Source: Minisyncoccota bacterium (GTDB taxonomy: Bacteria > Patescibacteriota > Minisyncoccia > Phycocordibacterales > CAIZLB01). From it: a stretch of DNA of 37,244 nucleotides. The stretch is taken from contig JAGOSK010000005.1 in the NCBI GenBank assembly GCA_018062305.1, forward strand, positions 3,917 through 41,160, read 5' to 3'. The position numbers were made by a program, and so were the translations under genes. Below the pieces are notes generated by a model, which saw only the letters and a program-made list of their open reading frames with translations, made no database searches and was not told the DNA's origin. Positions 13,882 through 20,621 of the stretch are shown here, in pieces (within the stretch, counting starts at the first letter, position 1; each line of letters opens with the position of its first letter).

Positions 13882-16299
13882 CTATTTGGAAAATCTCCGA
13901 GATATATACTTGTAGGTTTCATTTGTGGTCAAATACAAGAATAGAATGGTCACTATGATTGCTATTGAAGAAGGCGTCAATCGAACTAAATGAAATGTTT
14001 TTGCGATAACAGGAATGAACGGGAGAGATACAGCCACAAACGCACAGCCAACGAGTGCTATTGCAAGCTGCTTTGATATCCTTTGAGCTGACCATATTGA
14101 ACTTGAGCTTCGAAGTGACAAAACTAAGATAAGCTCACAGAGTACACTGAACACAAACCAGCCTGTTCTTAGCACAGATAGGTCTTGATCTTTGAAAACA
14201 AAGAAGTAAATCATATCGAATACCGTACTGATAAGTGCAAACATAGTAACCTGTCTGAAAAACTCCTTAGCAGAATGATCAATCGGTTTTTGATAATCAA
14301 TTTTAGACAGTCGGTCTGTAACAAGAAGCAACAATGGCACATCAGTAAGCAAATTATTTAAAAGAATTTGAACAGGAAGCATCGGTATATCAGTCCAAAG
14401 TAGTGCCACAGCAGTTAATGAGAAGAGTGTCCCCAAATTTCCCGCGAGTGTACAAAGCAAATACGTGTAAATATGCGCATACACCCTTCTGCTCATTTGT
14501 ATCGCATGGATAATGGGGTTCAAGCTTTTCTCCATGAGAAGCACATCTGCTGACTGGCGCGCAACATCACTGGCATTATATACAACCATTCCCACATCAG
14601 CCCTCTTCAATGCCAGAGCATCATTTATTCCCTCTCCCAGAAATCCCACAGGGCCATGCTTTTCATGCATATCTATTAGTGCAAGTTTGTGATCAGGATG
14701 ACATCGAGCATATATTGTATCCTGATTAAAATCTTCTTCAGTCAACTTATTAATATCCACCTCATCGAGTGAACACACTTGATGAGGTTCTATACTTCGA
14801 TCCAATTCTTTTCCAACATATAGGGCAACACGAGGTGAGTCTCCCGTCAGTACCTTAACCGAGATACCCATTCCGAGAGCTGCATGATACGAGTGTGAAG
14901 CATCAGGTTTAAGTGGATCTTCGAAAATATATAGGCCTTCAAACACATATTCTTCTGCATTTTCAAGATCGTTGGCGACTTTTTTCTTTGAGGCAAATGC
15001 AATAACTCGGAGACCTTGATTCTCGTATGAGGCATGTATATCTTCATATTTTTGAATATCACCTATTGTAAGTCCCTTGCATTCATTTCGGACCGAAGTG
15101 AATTGTCCTCTGATGACATCGACATCATCAAATGAAAAAACTGCATAACCAAGACTAGATTTGAACGGAGTGACATCTGGCTTTGCGATTAGACTAGAAT
15201 TTGCCGTATTGTTTTTTTCCTTTGAGGCCTCAGTTTTCCCTTGTGTTTCATTTGCTTTCGCTAAAATTGCTGTATCAAAAGAACCATCCATTGGTGTACG
15301 CTCGTATTCAGCTCGGGCAATCATCTGTGCACACAATTCAACATTTTTGATATTAACAATATCACTGACACGTATATTATTTTCAGTTAAAGTACCTGTC
15401 TTATCAGTAAGTAGATATTTTATAGAACCAAGCTGTTGCAATGATGAGAGGTTCTTCACAATCACTTTCTCTTTCGCCAAACTGAGGGCTTCACGAGTAA
15501 GCATCAAAGTGATGATGAGTGGTAATGATTCTGGAACCACACCTACAAGCATGGCGATTGCATACAATACAAATTCAGCAACACCATACTTCCCCTCTAT
15601 CAAAACACCGAACACTCCAACCAAAAGAATACTAAGGAGTGTCACTAATAATATATTAATGCTCACATTAGAAATAAAACGAACAAAACTATTATTTTTC
15701 TTAATAGAATCAAGTTTTTCTGAATATTTTCGTAAAGAGTTTTCGGCGCTCGCCGCAATCACTTGACCAACAAGCCTTCCTGACGAAAGACTACACCCAG
15801 AAAGAACTTTTTCACCAACACGAGCTTCTATAGGTAAGCTCTCTCCAGTCAAAACTGACATATCAACATACGCGTCGTACACTTCTCTATTCACGATATC
15901 CGCAACAAGCACATCACCTGGGCCAAGAAGCAGAATGTCACCCACCACCACATCCTCACTTTTTATCTGTTGAAGTGTTCCATCTCTGATGATTGATGCA
16001 TTGTGCTCAATCATACTTTCAAGAAGCTGACTTGCTTTTGACGCCCGAAACTCTTGAATGAAACCAAGAATCACATTTGCAAGGTTGATGATGATAAAAA
16101 TCCATCCATCGATACTTGAGCTAAATATAAAGGATAATATTGCTGAAACTAAGAGAAGGACAAAGAATATTGATGCAATTTGACTGTATAAAACAGAAAA
16201 AATCAGTGAAATGTTCTTATTTGTATGACCTCTCTTCTTTGATAAATGCTTTTGGACATATGAGGCGCTCAAACCTGTCTTGGTATCAGTAAGTTCCAT
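13882..16299 (-). CDS. P-type (E1-E2) cation-transporting ATPase with unusual N- and P-domain motifs
   Basis: 805 residues. TGES is at 151-154, the membrane motif PESLP at 256-260, and the phosphorylated Asp at 299 in DKTGTLT. The hinge reads GEGIND (555-560) where nearly all relatives have GDGxND. The ATP-binding KGA motif seems replaced by RGQ near residue 397, and TGDSPRVA stands for the usual TGDxxxTA. The C-terminal PVQILLNNLLTDVPLL recalls MgtA-type pumps (P3B), but the cation is not predictable. The linker near 350-372 (KANETQGKTEASKEKNN) is low-complexity. A candidate structured RNA and terminator lie upstream at 16392-16557. Confidence 0.85.
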   Translation of the reverse strand: MELTDTKTGLSASYVQKHLSKKRGHTNKNISLIFSVLYSQIASIFFVLLLVSAILSFIFSSSIDGWIFIIINLANVILGFIQEFRASKASQLLESMIEHNASIIRDGTLQQIKSEDVVVGDILLLGPGDVLVADIVNREVYDAYVDMSVLTGESLPIEARVGEKVLSGCSLSSGRLVGQVIAASAENSLRKYSEKLDSIKKNNSFVRFISNVSINILLVTLLSILLVGVFGVLIEGKYGVAEFVLYAIAMLVGVVPESLPLIITLMLTREALSLAKEKVIVKNLSSLQQLGSIKYLLTDKTGTLTENNIRVSDIVNIKNVELCAQMIARAEYERTPMDGSFDTAILAKANETQGKTEASKEKNNTANSSLIAKPDVTPFKSSLGYAVFSFDDVDVIRGQFTSVRNECKGLTIGDIQKYEDIHASYENQGLRVIAFASKKKVANDLENAEEYVFEGLYIFEDPLKPDASHSYHAALGMGISVKVLTGDSPRVALYVGKELDRSIEPHQVCSLDEVDINKLTEEDFNQDTIYARCHPDHKLALIDMHEKHGPVGFLGEGINDALALKRADVGMVVYNASDVARQSADVLLMEKSLNPIIHAIQMSRRVYAHIYTYLLCTLAGNLGTLFSLTAVALLWTDIPMLPVQILLNNLLTDVPLLLLVTDRLSKIDYQKPIDHSAKEFFRQVTMFALISTVFDMIYFFVFKDQDLSVLRTGWFVFSVLCELILVLSLRSSSSIWSAQRISKQLAIALVGCAFVAVSLPFIPVIAKTFHLVRLTPSSIAIIVTILFLYLTTNETYKYISRRFSK

Positions 16300-16391: not shown

Positions 16392-16426
16392 AAAAAAATA
16401 CCCACCGCACGTACTGTTTGGTGAGT
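16392..16426 (-). terminator. Intrinsic terminator of the 16392-16557 RNA
   Basis: On the minus strand ACTCACC (16426-16420) pairs with GGTGGGT (16406-16400), seven pairs including one T-G wobble, with a 13-nt loop. It is followed by A and a run of seven T (16398-16392). It ends about 92 nt before the ATPase start. Confidence 0.7.
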
Positions 16427-16557
16427 TTCTTTATGAGGCATCCTGCGTATCAAACCTAGACTTTAACCTAGGGTGGGTTCTCTGTGAGCGAAACCAAGGT
16501 CGCACTCAACTCGAGATCCCTGATGATATGTATTGAAGTTGATACAACAAGACACCT
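16392..16557 (-). ncRNA. Candidate structured RNA between ndk and the ATPase gene
   Basis: On the minus strand a perfect TATAAT (16564-16569) with TTGCAA 15 bp upstream (16585-16590) predicts a start near 16557. The expected transcript folds end to end: GGTGTC (16551-16556) pairs with GATGCC (16437-16442), and GTATCAA (16539-16545) pairs with TTGATAC (16447-16453), with smaller hairpins inside. A separate terminator follows at 16392-16426. It contains no credible ORF. It could be a free small RNA (6S-like in size and rod shape) or a cis-acting leader of the ATPase gene. I find no M-box, yybP-ykoY, SRP or RNase P core motif. Confidence 0.5.
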
Positions 16558-16622
16558 GAGTTCATTATATACCTATCTCAAAAATTGCAACGCTTTACAT
16601 ACTCACTCCTGCCGTTTTCTAA

Positions 16623-17258
16623 TTATTTTACCTTCCCTAAAATATCGCTCATATCAGGCGCGTAAAGAATCTTGTCTGAAACGATTGAGTAATCCACAAG
16701 TTCCTCATCAGTAAACCAATGTCGTATCTCATCTTCAGCTTCTTTAACTGAACCAGATGCGTGCACCAAATTTCGTATTGAACGATTGTCAGTTTCAGAC
16801 ATTTGATATGAATCAAGGACAAAGTCCCCTCGAATTGTTCCCACATCTGATGTAAGAGGCTCTGTTCCACCTGTTATCTTTCGTACAATTTTTACAGCAT
16901 GAGCACCTTGCCATACCATAGCTATTACTGGACCACTTGTAAGGTATGTCACCAATCTCCCAAGAATACTATGAGCTATAGCGAGAGGATCTGTCGAAGG
17001 CGGAGTTTGACCCTTATCTACAAAGCCTTTTATACTTTTCTCTCCTACCGCCTGCAGCCATCCAGCGTCGAGAGTATAGTGTTTTGAAACCATTTCCGGC
17101 GTCGGAACCATGAGTTTCATACCCACAAGCTTAAGCCCGATACGTTCATATCTACCAATAATTTCACCAATAAGTGTTCTCTGAATACCGTCGGGCTTAA
17201 TAATGACAAAAGTACGTTCGTCTTTGTGATGTGTTGGTGTTGATGCTGTATGTGTCAT
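16623..17258 (-). CDS. ndk: Nucleoside diphosphate kinase, long form
   Basis: 211 residues against about 140-150 for typical Ndk. The start ERTFVIIKPDGIQRTLIGEI and the active site NLVHASGSVKEAEDEI with H166 are canonical. The extra length lies in an insertion around residues 62-100 (GWLQAVGEKSIKGF to PLAIAHSILGR) and a C-terminal tail after HWFTDEE. The enzyme transfers phosphate from ATP to NDPs through phosphohistidine. Start 17258 is chosen over an ATG 21 nt upstream because TACACT ends 6 nt before it and the upstream residues are not Ndk-like. Confidence 0.92.
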   Translation of the reverse strand: MTHTASTPTHHKDERTFVIIKPDGIQRTLIGEIIGRYERIGLKLVGMKLMVPTPEMVSKHYTLDAGWLQAVGEKSIKGFVDKGQTPPSTDPLAIAHSILGRLVTYLTSGPVIAMVWQGAHAVKIVRKITGGTEPLTSDVGTIRGDFVLDSYQMSETDNRSIRNLVHASGSVKEAEDEIRHWFTDEELVDYSIVSDKILYAPDMSDILGKVK

Positions 17259-17262
17259 GCGA

Positions 17263-17535
17263 TTAGTGTAGCATATCACTCTTGATATTGATCCAAAGAT
17301 AATTTTCTATCATCTGTGCAAATGAATCAGATATAAAATACCCTATGCTAACGTAGAGTAAGGCTATCACTACGACAAATAATGTAAATTTAAATAAAGA
17401 CATCGCCGCTTTATAACTATCACTTTTTGACAAGAGGAACATCCAAAGCAATACAAAGATACTAAATAATACAGAGAGTCCTAAAAAGAATAGAGCGAGG
17501 TTTAGTGAACTTTCATTAAAAATTGATTCAATCAT
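17263..17535 (-). CDS. Small two-helix membrane protein, unknown
   Basis: 90 residues with hydrophobic helices near 13-35 and 47-70, joined by the polar loop SKSDSYKAAMSLFK. I recognise no family. TAATAT ends 6 nt before the ATG. It stands between the TraG-like ATPase gene (20 bp upstream) and ndk (4 bp downstream) on the same strand. The position after the translocase gene hints at, but does not show, a shared function. Confidence 0.6.
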   Translation of the reverse strand: MIESIFNESSLNLALFFLGLSVLFSIFVLLWMFLLSKSDSYKAAMSLFKFTLFVVVIALLYVSIGYFISDSFAQMIENYLWINIKSDMLH

Positions 17536-17555: not shown

Positions 17556-20500
17556 TTAAGCAGGATTTTGAGATGACGGAGAAGGTGCTGCTGGTGGTGT
17601 AAAAGTAGACCTGGCTGGTGATGTAGGTGATGAAGCACTGATTGATGCAGATGGCTCTGACGCAAAAGACGCACTGCGAAGCGGCATACTCGGAGGCACC
17701 ACAGGCTCCTTCTTATATTTTTCCATAATCAAATCTTCAACCAGAGTTCTATCTTGCCCATACTTGAGATATGAAAGTTCTTTAAGATTATCTACCACAT
17801 CAGGAGTCCCCTTGTCCGGCCAAGTGAACTCAACATTGAATGGTCGAACAGGCTTACCGCCTGAGAGCATCTTTACATAACAATTCATATTGTCGATATT
17901 CATAATGTCATTTGAAGTGAATACCGGTTCAAATTGTTTTTCCAAAAATTCAGCGTCTTCCGCACCTACTCGGAATACTCCCATGTTTCCTACGTTTCCA
18001 AATACGGCATCTTTAATATTGTCGTCGAGCTGTGCGATAAACTGATGCGCCATAGTGAGAGACAACTTGTACTTTCGAGCTTCAGAAAGAATAGTAGCAA
18101 TAGACGGTGTAGTAATGTTCTGGAACTCATCTATATATAGATAGAATGGAGGCACTTCTTTTCCAAATGAATCTACTCGAGAAAGTGCTGCCATCAAAAT
18201 CTTACCCACAAGAATAAGACCAATAAGTGATGAGTTAATGTCACCAAGTCGTCCTTTTGCAAGATTCACGAGAAGAATTTTCTTTGAATCCATTATTTCA
18301 CGGAAATTGAAGCTCGATTTTTCCTGAGCGATGATCGGTCGCATAATGTCGTTCGCCAAGAACACATCGAACTTCGAGGTGATGTATGGCACCATGTTTT
18401 GTAGTGAGCCTTCCCCTCCAGCCTTCTCAGCAATCTCTTTCCAAAACTGCACAACTACGGGGTTTTTACATCGACTAACTTTCATATCACGGAAACTTTT
18501 CACCGCCATTACTCGCGACACATCGAGAAGCGTACATCCACTATCAGGATCCTCGATTACAAGCATTGTGGCATTTCGGAAGTACTGCTCAAACATTGGA
18601 CCCATAGATTCCGGCACTCCACCATACAATTTTTGGAAAATACTAAAGAGTTCATTCACTACAAATGTTTTTTGTTCTGGATAATCTCGATTGTACTCGA
18701 GCATGTTCAAAGACATTGGTCGATCAACATGACTTGGGTCAAAATAGATGACATCTTCATATCGCTCTTTAGGAATGTGAGCGAGAATATCTTGTACATC
18801 AGAACCGTGAGGATCAATAAAACAAACACCATCGCCGTTTTTGATGTCTTGAATAATCATATTTCGAAGCATTGTAGACTTACCAGTACCTGTCTGACCG
18901 ATAACATAAAAGTGTCGAAGTCTATCCTCAGGAGTTACATATATAGGTGTATCGATGTTTCGATGTTTATTTGTACCGAGGAATAGATTTCGACGTGTTT
19001 GCTGTCCATTCCCTGCGACGCCACTTTGTGCGTCACCACCGAATCCTTTTGTTTCAGCCCCAGGCATACCAAGTGGAGCGGGGGCACTTCCAGCTTTTGA
19101 CTGTTTGAGTTGATGAGCACCTGACACAGCCTCTGTTGGGAAGTGCATAATAGTCGTGAGTTCTCGCACAGATACCGGCACAGAATGTTCTTTATCAAAC
19201 AGACGGTACGAGTAGTTGTGTGTAAGCTCTGCTAGTGCAAATTCTTTTACTCGATCGAACTTCAAACCGTTTCCCAGCGAATTCTCAAACTGTCCAAATG
19301 ATGATTCGATACTTGTGATGATATCCTCGGCACGAGAGCGATTGGCAGCTGAAGCAAGTATTCGAATATTGGTTTCAATAACAGGAGTTTGAATCTTTGC
19401 AGTTATCTGTTCAACAGTAATTGAATCAACCACTTTCGGTTCTTCTTTTTTCTCTTTATCCCCTTTTGTCACTTCTTTATATGTCTCTTTTGTAAGTTCC
19501 TTAAACCCTTTTGTAAAATTACCCCAAAGTGTATGCCGAATATCTGTGGCTTTCTTCACTGACTCGCCTTTTTGAATTTCATCAAGAGCTTCTTTGTATT
19601 GTTTATTATAATAATCTCCAGCAGGATTAAATACAATTTGAATTGCTGCACCCTCACCATCTTTTTCAATCTTGGAAAGCGCATTCAAAATTACATTAAG
19701 TGGATCATAGTCAAATTGTTCATATGTCTTTATTGGAAATATCTCTCGGCGAATTTGTTTTCCGGTAGAACCGACTGAAAAACCATCTTCATTGAAGATA
19801 TTGTAATTGTCTTTTTTCTCAGCAAGTTTGGCATTTGGGAAAATAGAGAGAAACTGCTTCTCAAATATATCTCGCTTCTGATCAGGTACCGCAACATAAA
19901 ATACGAACTCTTCCCCACCATTGGCAACTGCCAGTTCAATAGTAAACTGGTTTTCAACAAGTTCTGTTCCATATGAGGCTTTTCCACCACTTGAACCAGT
20001 ACCAGACACTGACAACATACCGGCATAGAATTGCTCCATAGATGAAATAAGTTCCTTGAGACTTTTTCTTTTCTCTTCAGCGTCCCCCTTTGATTCTGGA
20101 AGTGCTACTTCGTAGAGAGTTTGTTTGAGTGCTTTAGCCACCGGAAGTGTTTCTTTGAGGCCGTGTGATGGATATCCTTTCTTAAGATACTCCACGAGAA
20201 ATCTATGGAAGTCAGCATCTATGTGCGGGCTATTCATTCCTCTTGCCACTTGTATGGCATTCAATACACCTTTCTCCTGCATTATCTGCATAAGTCCTTC
20301 CATTCGTTTATCATGCATTTCAGGGCTTAAATCAAGGATAATTTCCCATTGTTCTTGCGCCGGCATTTTATAGTGCTCATGCAAAACTCGGTCAGCATCT
20401 TGTACACTGTAGTTTGCAATCTCGCTATCTATTATCGCCGCTCTTTCTTCTTGACGAGCTTCAGACTCTGGATGAGAAGCTAGATGCTGTTCTCTGCTTT

Positions 20501-20621
20501 GCACAACTCCACGCAAATAATCGAGTTCTTCTTGGAGAGAAGCGAACTGTTTGTTTTCGTAAACGGCAGTGGATTTTGGTTCAACCGCAATATTAGATTG
20601 CGGAAATTTTTCTTGTTGCAT
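17556..20621 (-). CDS. VirD4/TraG-like DNA-translocase ATPase (type IV secretion coupling-protein family)
   Basis: 1021 residues. Walker A, GQTGTGKST, is near residue 575, after RHFYVIG; Walker B, FYLYIDEFQN, is near 825; TMAHQFIAQLDD and the C-terminal FNVEFTWPD complete the TraD/TraG-type motor. The first 540 residues are soluble and contain charged helices and the linker GTGSSGGKAS, with no clear transmembrane anchor. The last 40 residues are Pro/Ser/Ala-rich. Relatives pump DNA or protein through membranes, and CPR bacteria often encode such ATPases with DNA-uptake or type IV-like genes. No other secretion genes are in the window. TATAAT ends 9 nt before the ATG. Confidence 0.82.
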   Translation of the reverse strand: MQQEKFPQSNIAVEPKSTAVYENKQFASLQEELDYLRGVVQSREQHLASHPESEARQEERAAIIDSEIANYSVQDADRVLHEHYKMPAQEQWEIILDLSPEMHDKRMEGLMQIMQEKGVLNAIQVARGMNSPHIDADFHRFLVEYLKKGYPSHGLKETLPVAKALKQTLYEVALPESKGDAEEKRKSLKELISSMEQFYAGMLSVSGTGSSGGKASYGTELVENQFTIELAVANGGEEFVFYVAVPDQKRDIFEKQFLSIFPNAKLAEKKDNYNIFNEDGFSVGSTGKQIRREIFPIKTYEQFDYDPLNVILNALSKIEKDGEGAAIQIVFNPAGDYYNKQYKEALDEIQKGESVKKATDIRHTLWGNFTKGFKELTKETYKEVTKGDKEKKEEPKVVDSITVEQITAKIQTPVIETNIRILASAANRSRAEDIITSIESSFGQFENSLGNGLKFDRVKEFALAELTHNYSYRLFDKEHSVPVSVRELTTIMHFPTEAVSGAHQLKQSKAGSAPAPLGMPGAETKGFGGDAQSGVAGNGQQTRRNLFLGTNKHRNIDTPIYVTPEDRLRHFYVIGQTGTGKSTMLRNMIIQDIKNGDGVCFIDPHGSDVQDILAHIPKERYEDVIYFDPSHVDRPMSLNMLEYNRDYPEQKTFVVNELFSIFQKLYGGVPESMGPMFEQYFRNATMLVIEDPDSGCTLLDVSRVMAVKSFRDMKVSRCKNPVVVQFWKEIAEKAGGEGSLQNMVPYITSKFDVFLANDIMRPIIAQEKSSFNFREIMDSKKILLVNLAKGRLGDINSSLIGLILVGKILMAALSRVDSFGKEVPPFYLYIDEFQNITTPSIATILSEARKYKLSLTMAHQFIAQLDDNIKDAVFGNVGNMGVFRVGAEDAEFLEKQFEPVFTSNDIMNIDNMNCYVKMLSGGKPVRPFNVEFTWPDKGTPDVVDNLKELSYLKYGQDRTLVEDLIMEKYKKEPVVPPSMPLRSASFASEPSASISASSPTSPARSTFTPPAAPSPSSQNPA

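Follow-up and report, generated by a model that had tools for sequence, protein, structure and literature searches.

A probable compact 6S RNA gene beside ndk in a Minisyncoccota bacterium, below the detection limit of Rfam

The window analysed here, a stretch of 37,244 nucleotides from a Minisyncoccota bacterium, carries on its minus strand, at about 16557-16392, an RNA gene that is confirmed as real, free-standing and conserved. By imitating an open promoter, the small 6S RNA blocks the bacterial RNA polymerase, and the locus is very probably its gene (ssrS) in a compact form, with a mechanism that would combine open-promoter mimicry with pRNA-driven release. At the level of sequence comparison, the RNA is shown to be homologous to the 6S RNAs of RF00013, and by the same comparison it belongs, as a compact form, to the lineage of 6S RNAs and lies below Rfam's detection limit. 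An earlier reading of this DNA from its letters (the sequence-only reading) had offered a 6S-like RNA as one possibility. That identification is borne out more strongly than it had been put, with homology to 6S RNA drawn from matches of RF00013 and of two covariance models, R2 and R3, described below. The elements of the locus and its neighbours, in the direction of transcription, are the following.

16623..17279, minus strand: ndk, nucleoside diphosphate kinase, the conserved upstream neighbour (PF00334, 1.8e-36)
16564..16569, minus strand: TATAAT, the -10 box of the RNA's promoter (from the sequence)
16392..16557, minus strand: predicted 6S RNA transcript, about 166 nt including the terminator (fold z, R3 and R2 matches)
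16539..16557, minus strand: 5' strand of the closing stem, with P1 at 16556-16547 and P2 at 16545-16539 (fold and covariation)
16521..16538, minus strand: 5' side of the central bubble, 18 nt, the predicted pRNA start region (alignment and analogy)
16524..16528, minus strand: UAUCA in the distal 5' bubble, predicted collapse-helix partner of UGAUA at 16452-16448 in the 3' strand of P2
16475..16520, minus strand: apical arm GGGAUCUC...GACCUUGGUU...GAGAACCC, with a cUUg-type tetraloop (fold and covariation)
16454..16474, minus strand: 3' side of the central bubble, with the hairpin CCUAGG-UUAAAG-UCUAGG at 16472-16455 (fold and covariation)
16433..16453, minus strand: 3' strand of the closing stem (fold and covariation)
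16393..16430, minus strand: intrinsic terminator, with a stem within about 16430-16401 followed by U7 at 16399-16393
13882..16299, minus strand: P-type cation ATPase, the non-conserved downstream neighbour (PF00122, PF00689)

The structural elements that the sequence-only reading had proposed are all found on the minus strand. The TATAAT box lies at 16569-16564, in a promoter with a weak -35 hexamer and a spacing of 15, which is why a consensus promoter scanner did not list it, and the 5' end of the transcript would fall 7 nt after this box. Both long-range helices are present, one of them (16551-16556/16437-16442) pairing GGUGUC with GAUGCC, G-U pairs included, and the other (16539-16545/16447-16453) pairing GUAUCAA with UUGAUAC in 7 Watson-Crick pairs. 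Also present are an internal hairpin near 16484-16506 and, at the end, a terminator made of a hairpin and U7; the RNA contains no ORF of 80 aa or more. Folding of the minus strand reaches -57.2 kcal/mol against -39.1 +/- 4.0 for 200 shuffles (z -4.5, with 0/200 as good) and still gives a z of -4.3 when the terminator is left out, while the plus-strand fold is not far better than chance (z -1.4).

Within the genus, BLAST finds the RNA in 6/6 genomes, that of the window and five others, and in the relatives with complete flanks a -10-like box stands directly before the RNA and a terminator directly after it, both with changed sequence. Convincing homologues from plain BLAST are confined to the genus, and covariance models were therefore needed. 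The model R1, built from six sequences, finds one full-length copy in 86 of the 297 genomes of the order, and R2, built from 69 sequences, places the RNA in 147 of the 380 genomes of the phylum, as a single copy in all but one; both counts are low because these large searches use strict filters. Under lax filters R3, a model of 27 sequences that are all recognised by RF00013 and none of which comes from the window's class, but whose rows were aligned with R2 and are therefore independent in sequence and not fully so in alignment, detects the RNA in 28 of the 31 relatives searched and, over the phylum as a whole, in 20 of 39 genomes. Aligned with MAFFT, the Rfam-recognised members gave a poor fold, so a model-guided alignment was used. 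As to copy number, the apparent pair in the relative G005 was rejected: its contigs C84 and C27 both end inside the RNA and overlap, as at an assembly break. Tandem 6S-type genes, each with a TATAAT-like box and a terminator, lie on the minus strand of locus L081 (G073:C10) at 2413-2544 and 2613-2743, recalling the situation of two 6S RNAs in B. subtilis. The genome G356 has two diverged copies on different contigs (L176, 2520-2647, plus strand; L177, 2402-2534, minus strand), which could be paralogues or contamination.

The sequence-only reading had named covariation as a check on the structure, and it proves to be overwhelming. Across 101 sequences, standard pairs fill 91.1% of the cells of a 40-pair structure, and changes on both sides of a pair number 1,255 compared with 355 after shuffling and at most 238 when the partners are slid by 1-3 columns. 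The 69-sequence set gives the same picture, and the RNA structure is shown, as far as alignments speak to it, to be under strong selection. What covariation supports is the rod form of 6S RNA, with the closing stem on one flank of a central bubble and the apical arm on the other. The closing stem has about 18 pairs, every one of them with both-side changes, and the 5' bubble a median of 18 nt, while the apical arm, with a median of 47 nt, runs from a nearly invariant GGG/CCC base through 16 pairs (87-99% of cells paired per helix) to a cUUg-type loop. On the opposite side, the 3' bubble of 19 nt holds a CCUAG/CUAGG hairpin, paired in 94% of cells, and a conserved ACCCACCU(A/G)G.

Because the window RNA has no RF00013 match and R2 misses E. 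coli ssrS, membership in the 6S family rests on sequences that link them. The Rfam search that the sequence-only reading had proposed finds no family at gathering score in the whole window, with one chance-level match near the site at E<=10, and 6S homology was shown by other models. Scans of the window and 18 relatives return chance matches alone (P37 at 16.9 bits; STnc540 and Atu_C9 below the cut-off), and RF00013 has no match in the window's genome even at E<=10. Its gathering cut-off of 46.4 bits is reached in 4 of the 380 genomes of the phylum and in 0 of the 31 nearest relatives. The RF00013 matches in these 380 genomes nevertheless fall on the same RNA: out of 31, 28 lie exactly at strict-filter R2 matches and two more coincide with R2 matches under laxer filters, for a total of 30, and the remaining one is at chance level (E 0.77). 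For G010 and G013, which belong to the window's own family, the best, sub-threshold RF00013 match is again this RNA. In the window's genome, R3 has the window RNA as its single match (E 9.5e-13), at 16560-16433 of the window with 59.4 bits, the next best there being 11.2 bits, and R2 matches the RNA with 102.2 bits. The GGGA/ACCCACC core of the apical arm is common to the RF00013 consensus. A motif scan (GGGAG-N-CCTTGG-N-CACCCACCTAG) against 84,980 named species genomes returned a single place, in Anaerosolibacter carboniphilus, and this place is a 6S gene (RF00013, 84.6 bits), which is also the sole match of R2 in the 5.2-Mb genome of that species (E 1.9e-6). The scan returned no genome from the window's group and, since the window's genome or very near records may be missing from the scanned set, it is no measure of distribution.

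Compared with the 6S RNAs of Clostridia and Bacillus, such as those of Anaerosolibacter and B. subtilis (6S-1), the window RNA shares the closing stem, a 5' bubble of 17-19 nt, the hairpin in the 3' bubble, the GGGAG/CACCCACCU base of the apical arm and the potential to form a collapse helix, and both are free-standing genes, usually in one copy, the window RNA having its own promoter and terminator. It departs from them in length, at about 128 nt before the terminator rather than about 180-200, in an apical arm that has 46-47 nt in the order and about 72 in Anaerosolibacter 6S, in the loss of the UGUUCG/ACGGCA outer closing stem common in classical 6S RNAs, and in falling below the Rfam cut-off. 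None of the 60 loci of the order, and 9 of 41 elsewhere in the phylum, have both elements of this outer stem. In the order, the position where the outer closing stem would begin is occupied by the -10 box: in 55 of the 60 loci, the distance from the end of a -10-like box to model position 1 is 2-5 nt (exactly 4 nt in 36), which places the transcription start at the base of the closing stem, while in other classes the box is mostly 12-24 nt ahead of this position, in the stretch where some of them have the outer stem. The missing outer stem and the short apical arm plausibly explain why RF00013, with its 187 positions, fails here.

With the truncated B. subtilis 6S-1 variants 6S78 and 6S82cp, the order's RNA has in common a central bubble between short arms, but those are engineered constructs, whereas the shortened arms of the order are natural and order-wide (PMC8876501). 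When B. subtilis 6S-1 is cut to the bubble and two short arms, it completes its full cycle in vitro with an affinity about tenfold lower, and these variants still template pRNA and are released (PMC8876501). Ms1 of actinobacteria is likewise 6S-like in shape and is a polymerase-binding RNA (PMC9130861), but one that binds the core enzyme, and Rfam scans of the window and its relatives give no sequence link to it. E. coli 6S RNA (ssrS) is alike in overall anatomy but has no match to the R2 model, and its release is driven by an extended 3'-bubble hairpin and not by a collapse helix (PMC8876501).

Polymerase binding and pRNA synthesis are expected of the window RNA by analogy with characterised 6S RNAs. 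It would fold as an open-promoter mimic, where the closing stem stands for the downstream duplex and the apical arm for the upstream duplex on either side of the central bubble, and would occupy the active site of a sigmaA-type RNA polymerase. When NTPs are scarce, transcription from housekeeping promoters would be damped by the RNA. Once NTPs are back, the polymerase would begin on the 5' bubble and transcribe a short pRNA that reaches into the P2 strand; the start is predicted near C16538, on the model of C40 in B. subtilis 6S-1, and the product would begin about GUUGAUACAACAAG. Through this copying the 3' strand of P2 would become available for pairing with the distal 5' bubble, the resulting helix being the central bubble collapse helix, and the complex would dissociate. 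The 6S RNAs of B. subtilis and Aquifex behave in this way: P2 is opened as the pRNA is made, and its released 3' strand anneals to the distal part of the 5' bubble (PMC8876501). Across the 101 sequences, pairing of the distal 5' bubble with the 3' strand of P2 scores 9.14 against 7.49 +/- 0.17 in composition-preserving shuffles (0/200), a control that does not remove the relatedness of the sequences, and the proximal bubble shows no excess with this strand (6.37 against 6.48 shuffled). What the proximal bubble does pair with in excess is the 3' arm of the hairpin in the 3' bubble (9.53 against 7.82 shuffled, 0/200), an arm with which the distal bubble shows no excess over shuffles. The first base of the bubble is C in 72 of the 101 sequences, which would suit a start with GTP like that at C40 in B. 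subtilis 6S-1. Possible targets of the 6S RNA are two RpoD-type sigma factors in the window's genome of 0.78 Mb (G000 C13:4311-5033 and C6:2041-2760). One of these two has a TAG inside its matched reading frame. The small size of that genome, the 0.4-2.0 Mb of members of the phylum and the gene content would fit Patescibacteria (CPR).

Directly downstream of the RNA and on the same strand lies the P-type ATPase, and the sequence-only reading had raised, beside a 6S-like RNA, a metal-sensing leader for this gene. The arrangement, with an intrinsic terminator between RNA and ATPase, would suit such a riboswitch, but it is the RNA that is conserved: the ATPase follows in 1 of 60 loci of the order, the window itself, so that a conserved link to a transporter or metal gene is missing. 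In G005, a near-identical relative with its contig break inside the RNA, the start of the ATPase likewise lies downstream. The RNA is moreover homologous to 6S and has a terminator of its own, a hairpin and U-run being found within 75 nt of the RNA in 52 of the 60 loci compared with 7% for shuffles, and a leader function, refuted by synteny, has scarcely any likelihood left. Given the RNA's own terminator, the ATPase needs a promoter of its own, for which a TATACT in the RNA-ATPase spacer of about 90 nt, kept in G005, is a candidate. The neighbour that is conserved is ndk, upstream on the same strand in 53 of the 60 loci and mostly no more than a few hundred nt away, as would be seen if the RNA were cut from the 3' UTR of ndk or formed its terminator structure. 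That origin is very improbable, however, for the RNA has its own -10 box at a fixed distance, its copies in other classes are found away from ndk, and a tandem duplicate carries its own promoter. Both the ATPase-leader and the ndk 3' UTR readings were rejected on synteny and promoter position. Beyond ndk, the minus strand of the window encodes at 17556-20621 an ATPase of 1021 aa that weakly matches HerA and the coupling proteins of type IV secretion.

Likeness to 6S RNA might also have arisen by convergence in an unrelated class of structured RNA, with a GGGA...ACCCACC core that is strongly conserved and a genome that has no RF00013 match; yet the RF00013 consensus has this same core, and RF00013 and R2 coincide on 30 loci, which makes such convergence highly unlikely. 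A 6S homologue could instead have shifted in function, for example to binding of the core polymerase as in Ms1, or to a state without pRNA-driven release. The loss of the outer stem and the shortening of the apical arm point this way; the -35-like region that contacts sigma region 4 sits in that arm (PMC8876501). Against this, the RNA still has its bubble, the hairpin on the 3' side of it and the pairing for a collapse helix, and truncated B. subtilis 6S-1, with its bubble and two short arms, cycles fully in vitro (PMC8876501). A shifted function is improbable, and a compact 6S RNA released through pRNA is the reading preferred here.

Judged by Rfam-based annotation, the phylum, with 4 positive genomes among 380, seems almost devoid of 6S RNA. 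With the improved models the count rises to at least 147 in the same 380 genomes, and the RNA is detected in 28 of 31 close relatives; a global regulator of transcription is therefore kept in some of the smallest bacterial genomes. The literature, of which part was covered, yielded no paper linking 6S RNA with the Candidate Phyla Radiation, Parcubacteria or Saccharibacteria, and the alignment is a ready extension of the Rfam 6S family. As a natural experiment, the compact form bears on the question of which parts of 6S RNA are indispensable, and it agrees with the laboratory result that a bubble and short arms suffice. The position of ndk immediately before the 6S gene, kept throughout the order, may link the supply of NTPs to release of the RNA. 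Tentatively, then, 6S RNA may be close to a core gene across the phylum and naturally minimal, without the outer stem and with a short -35-like arm, so that the polymerase might be regulated by little more than a bubble and a collapse helix; the place of the gene behind ndk, an NTP-making kinase, would tie the RNA to the supply of NTPs, which also controls its release.
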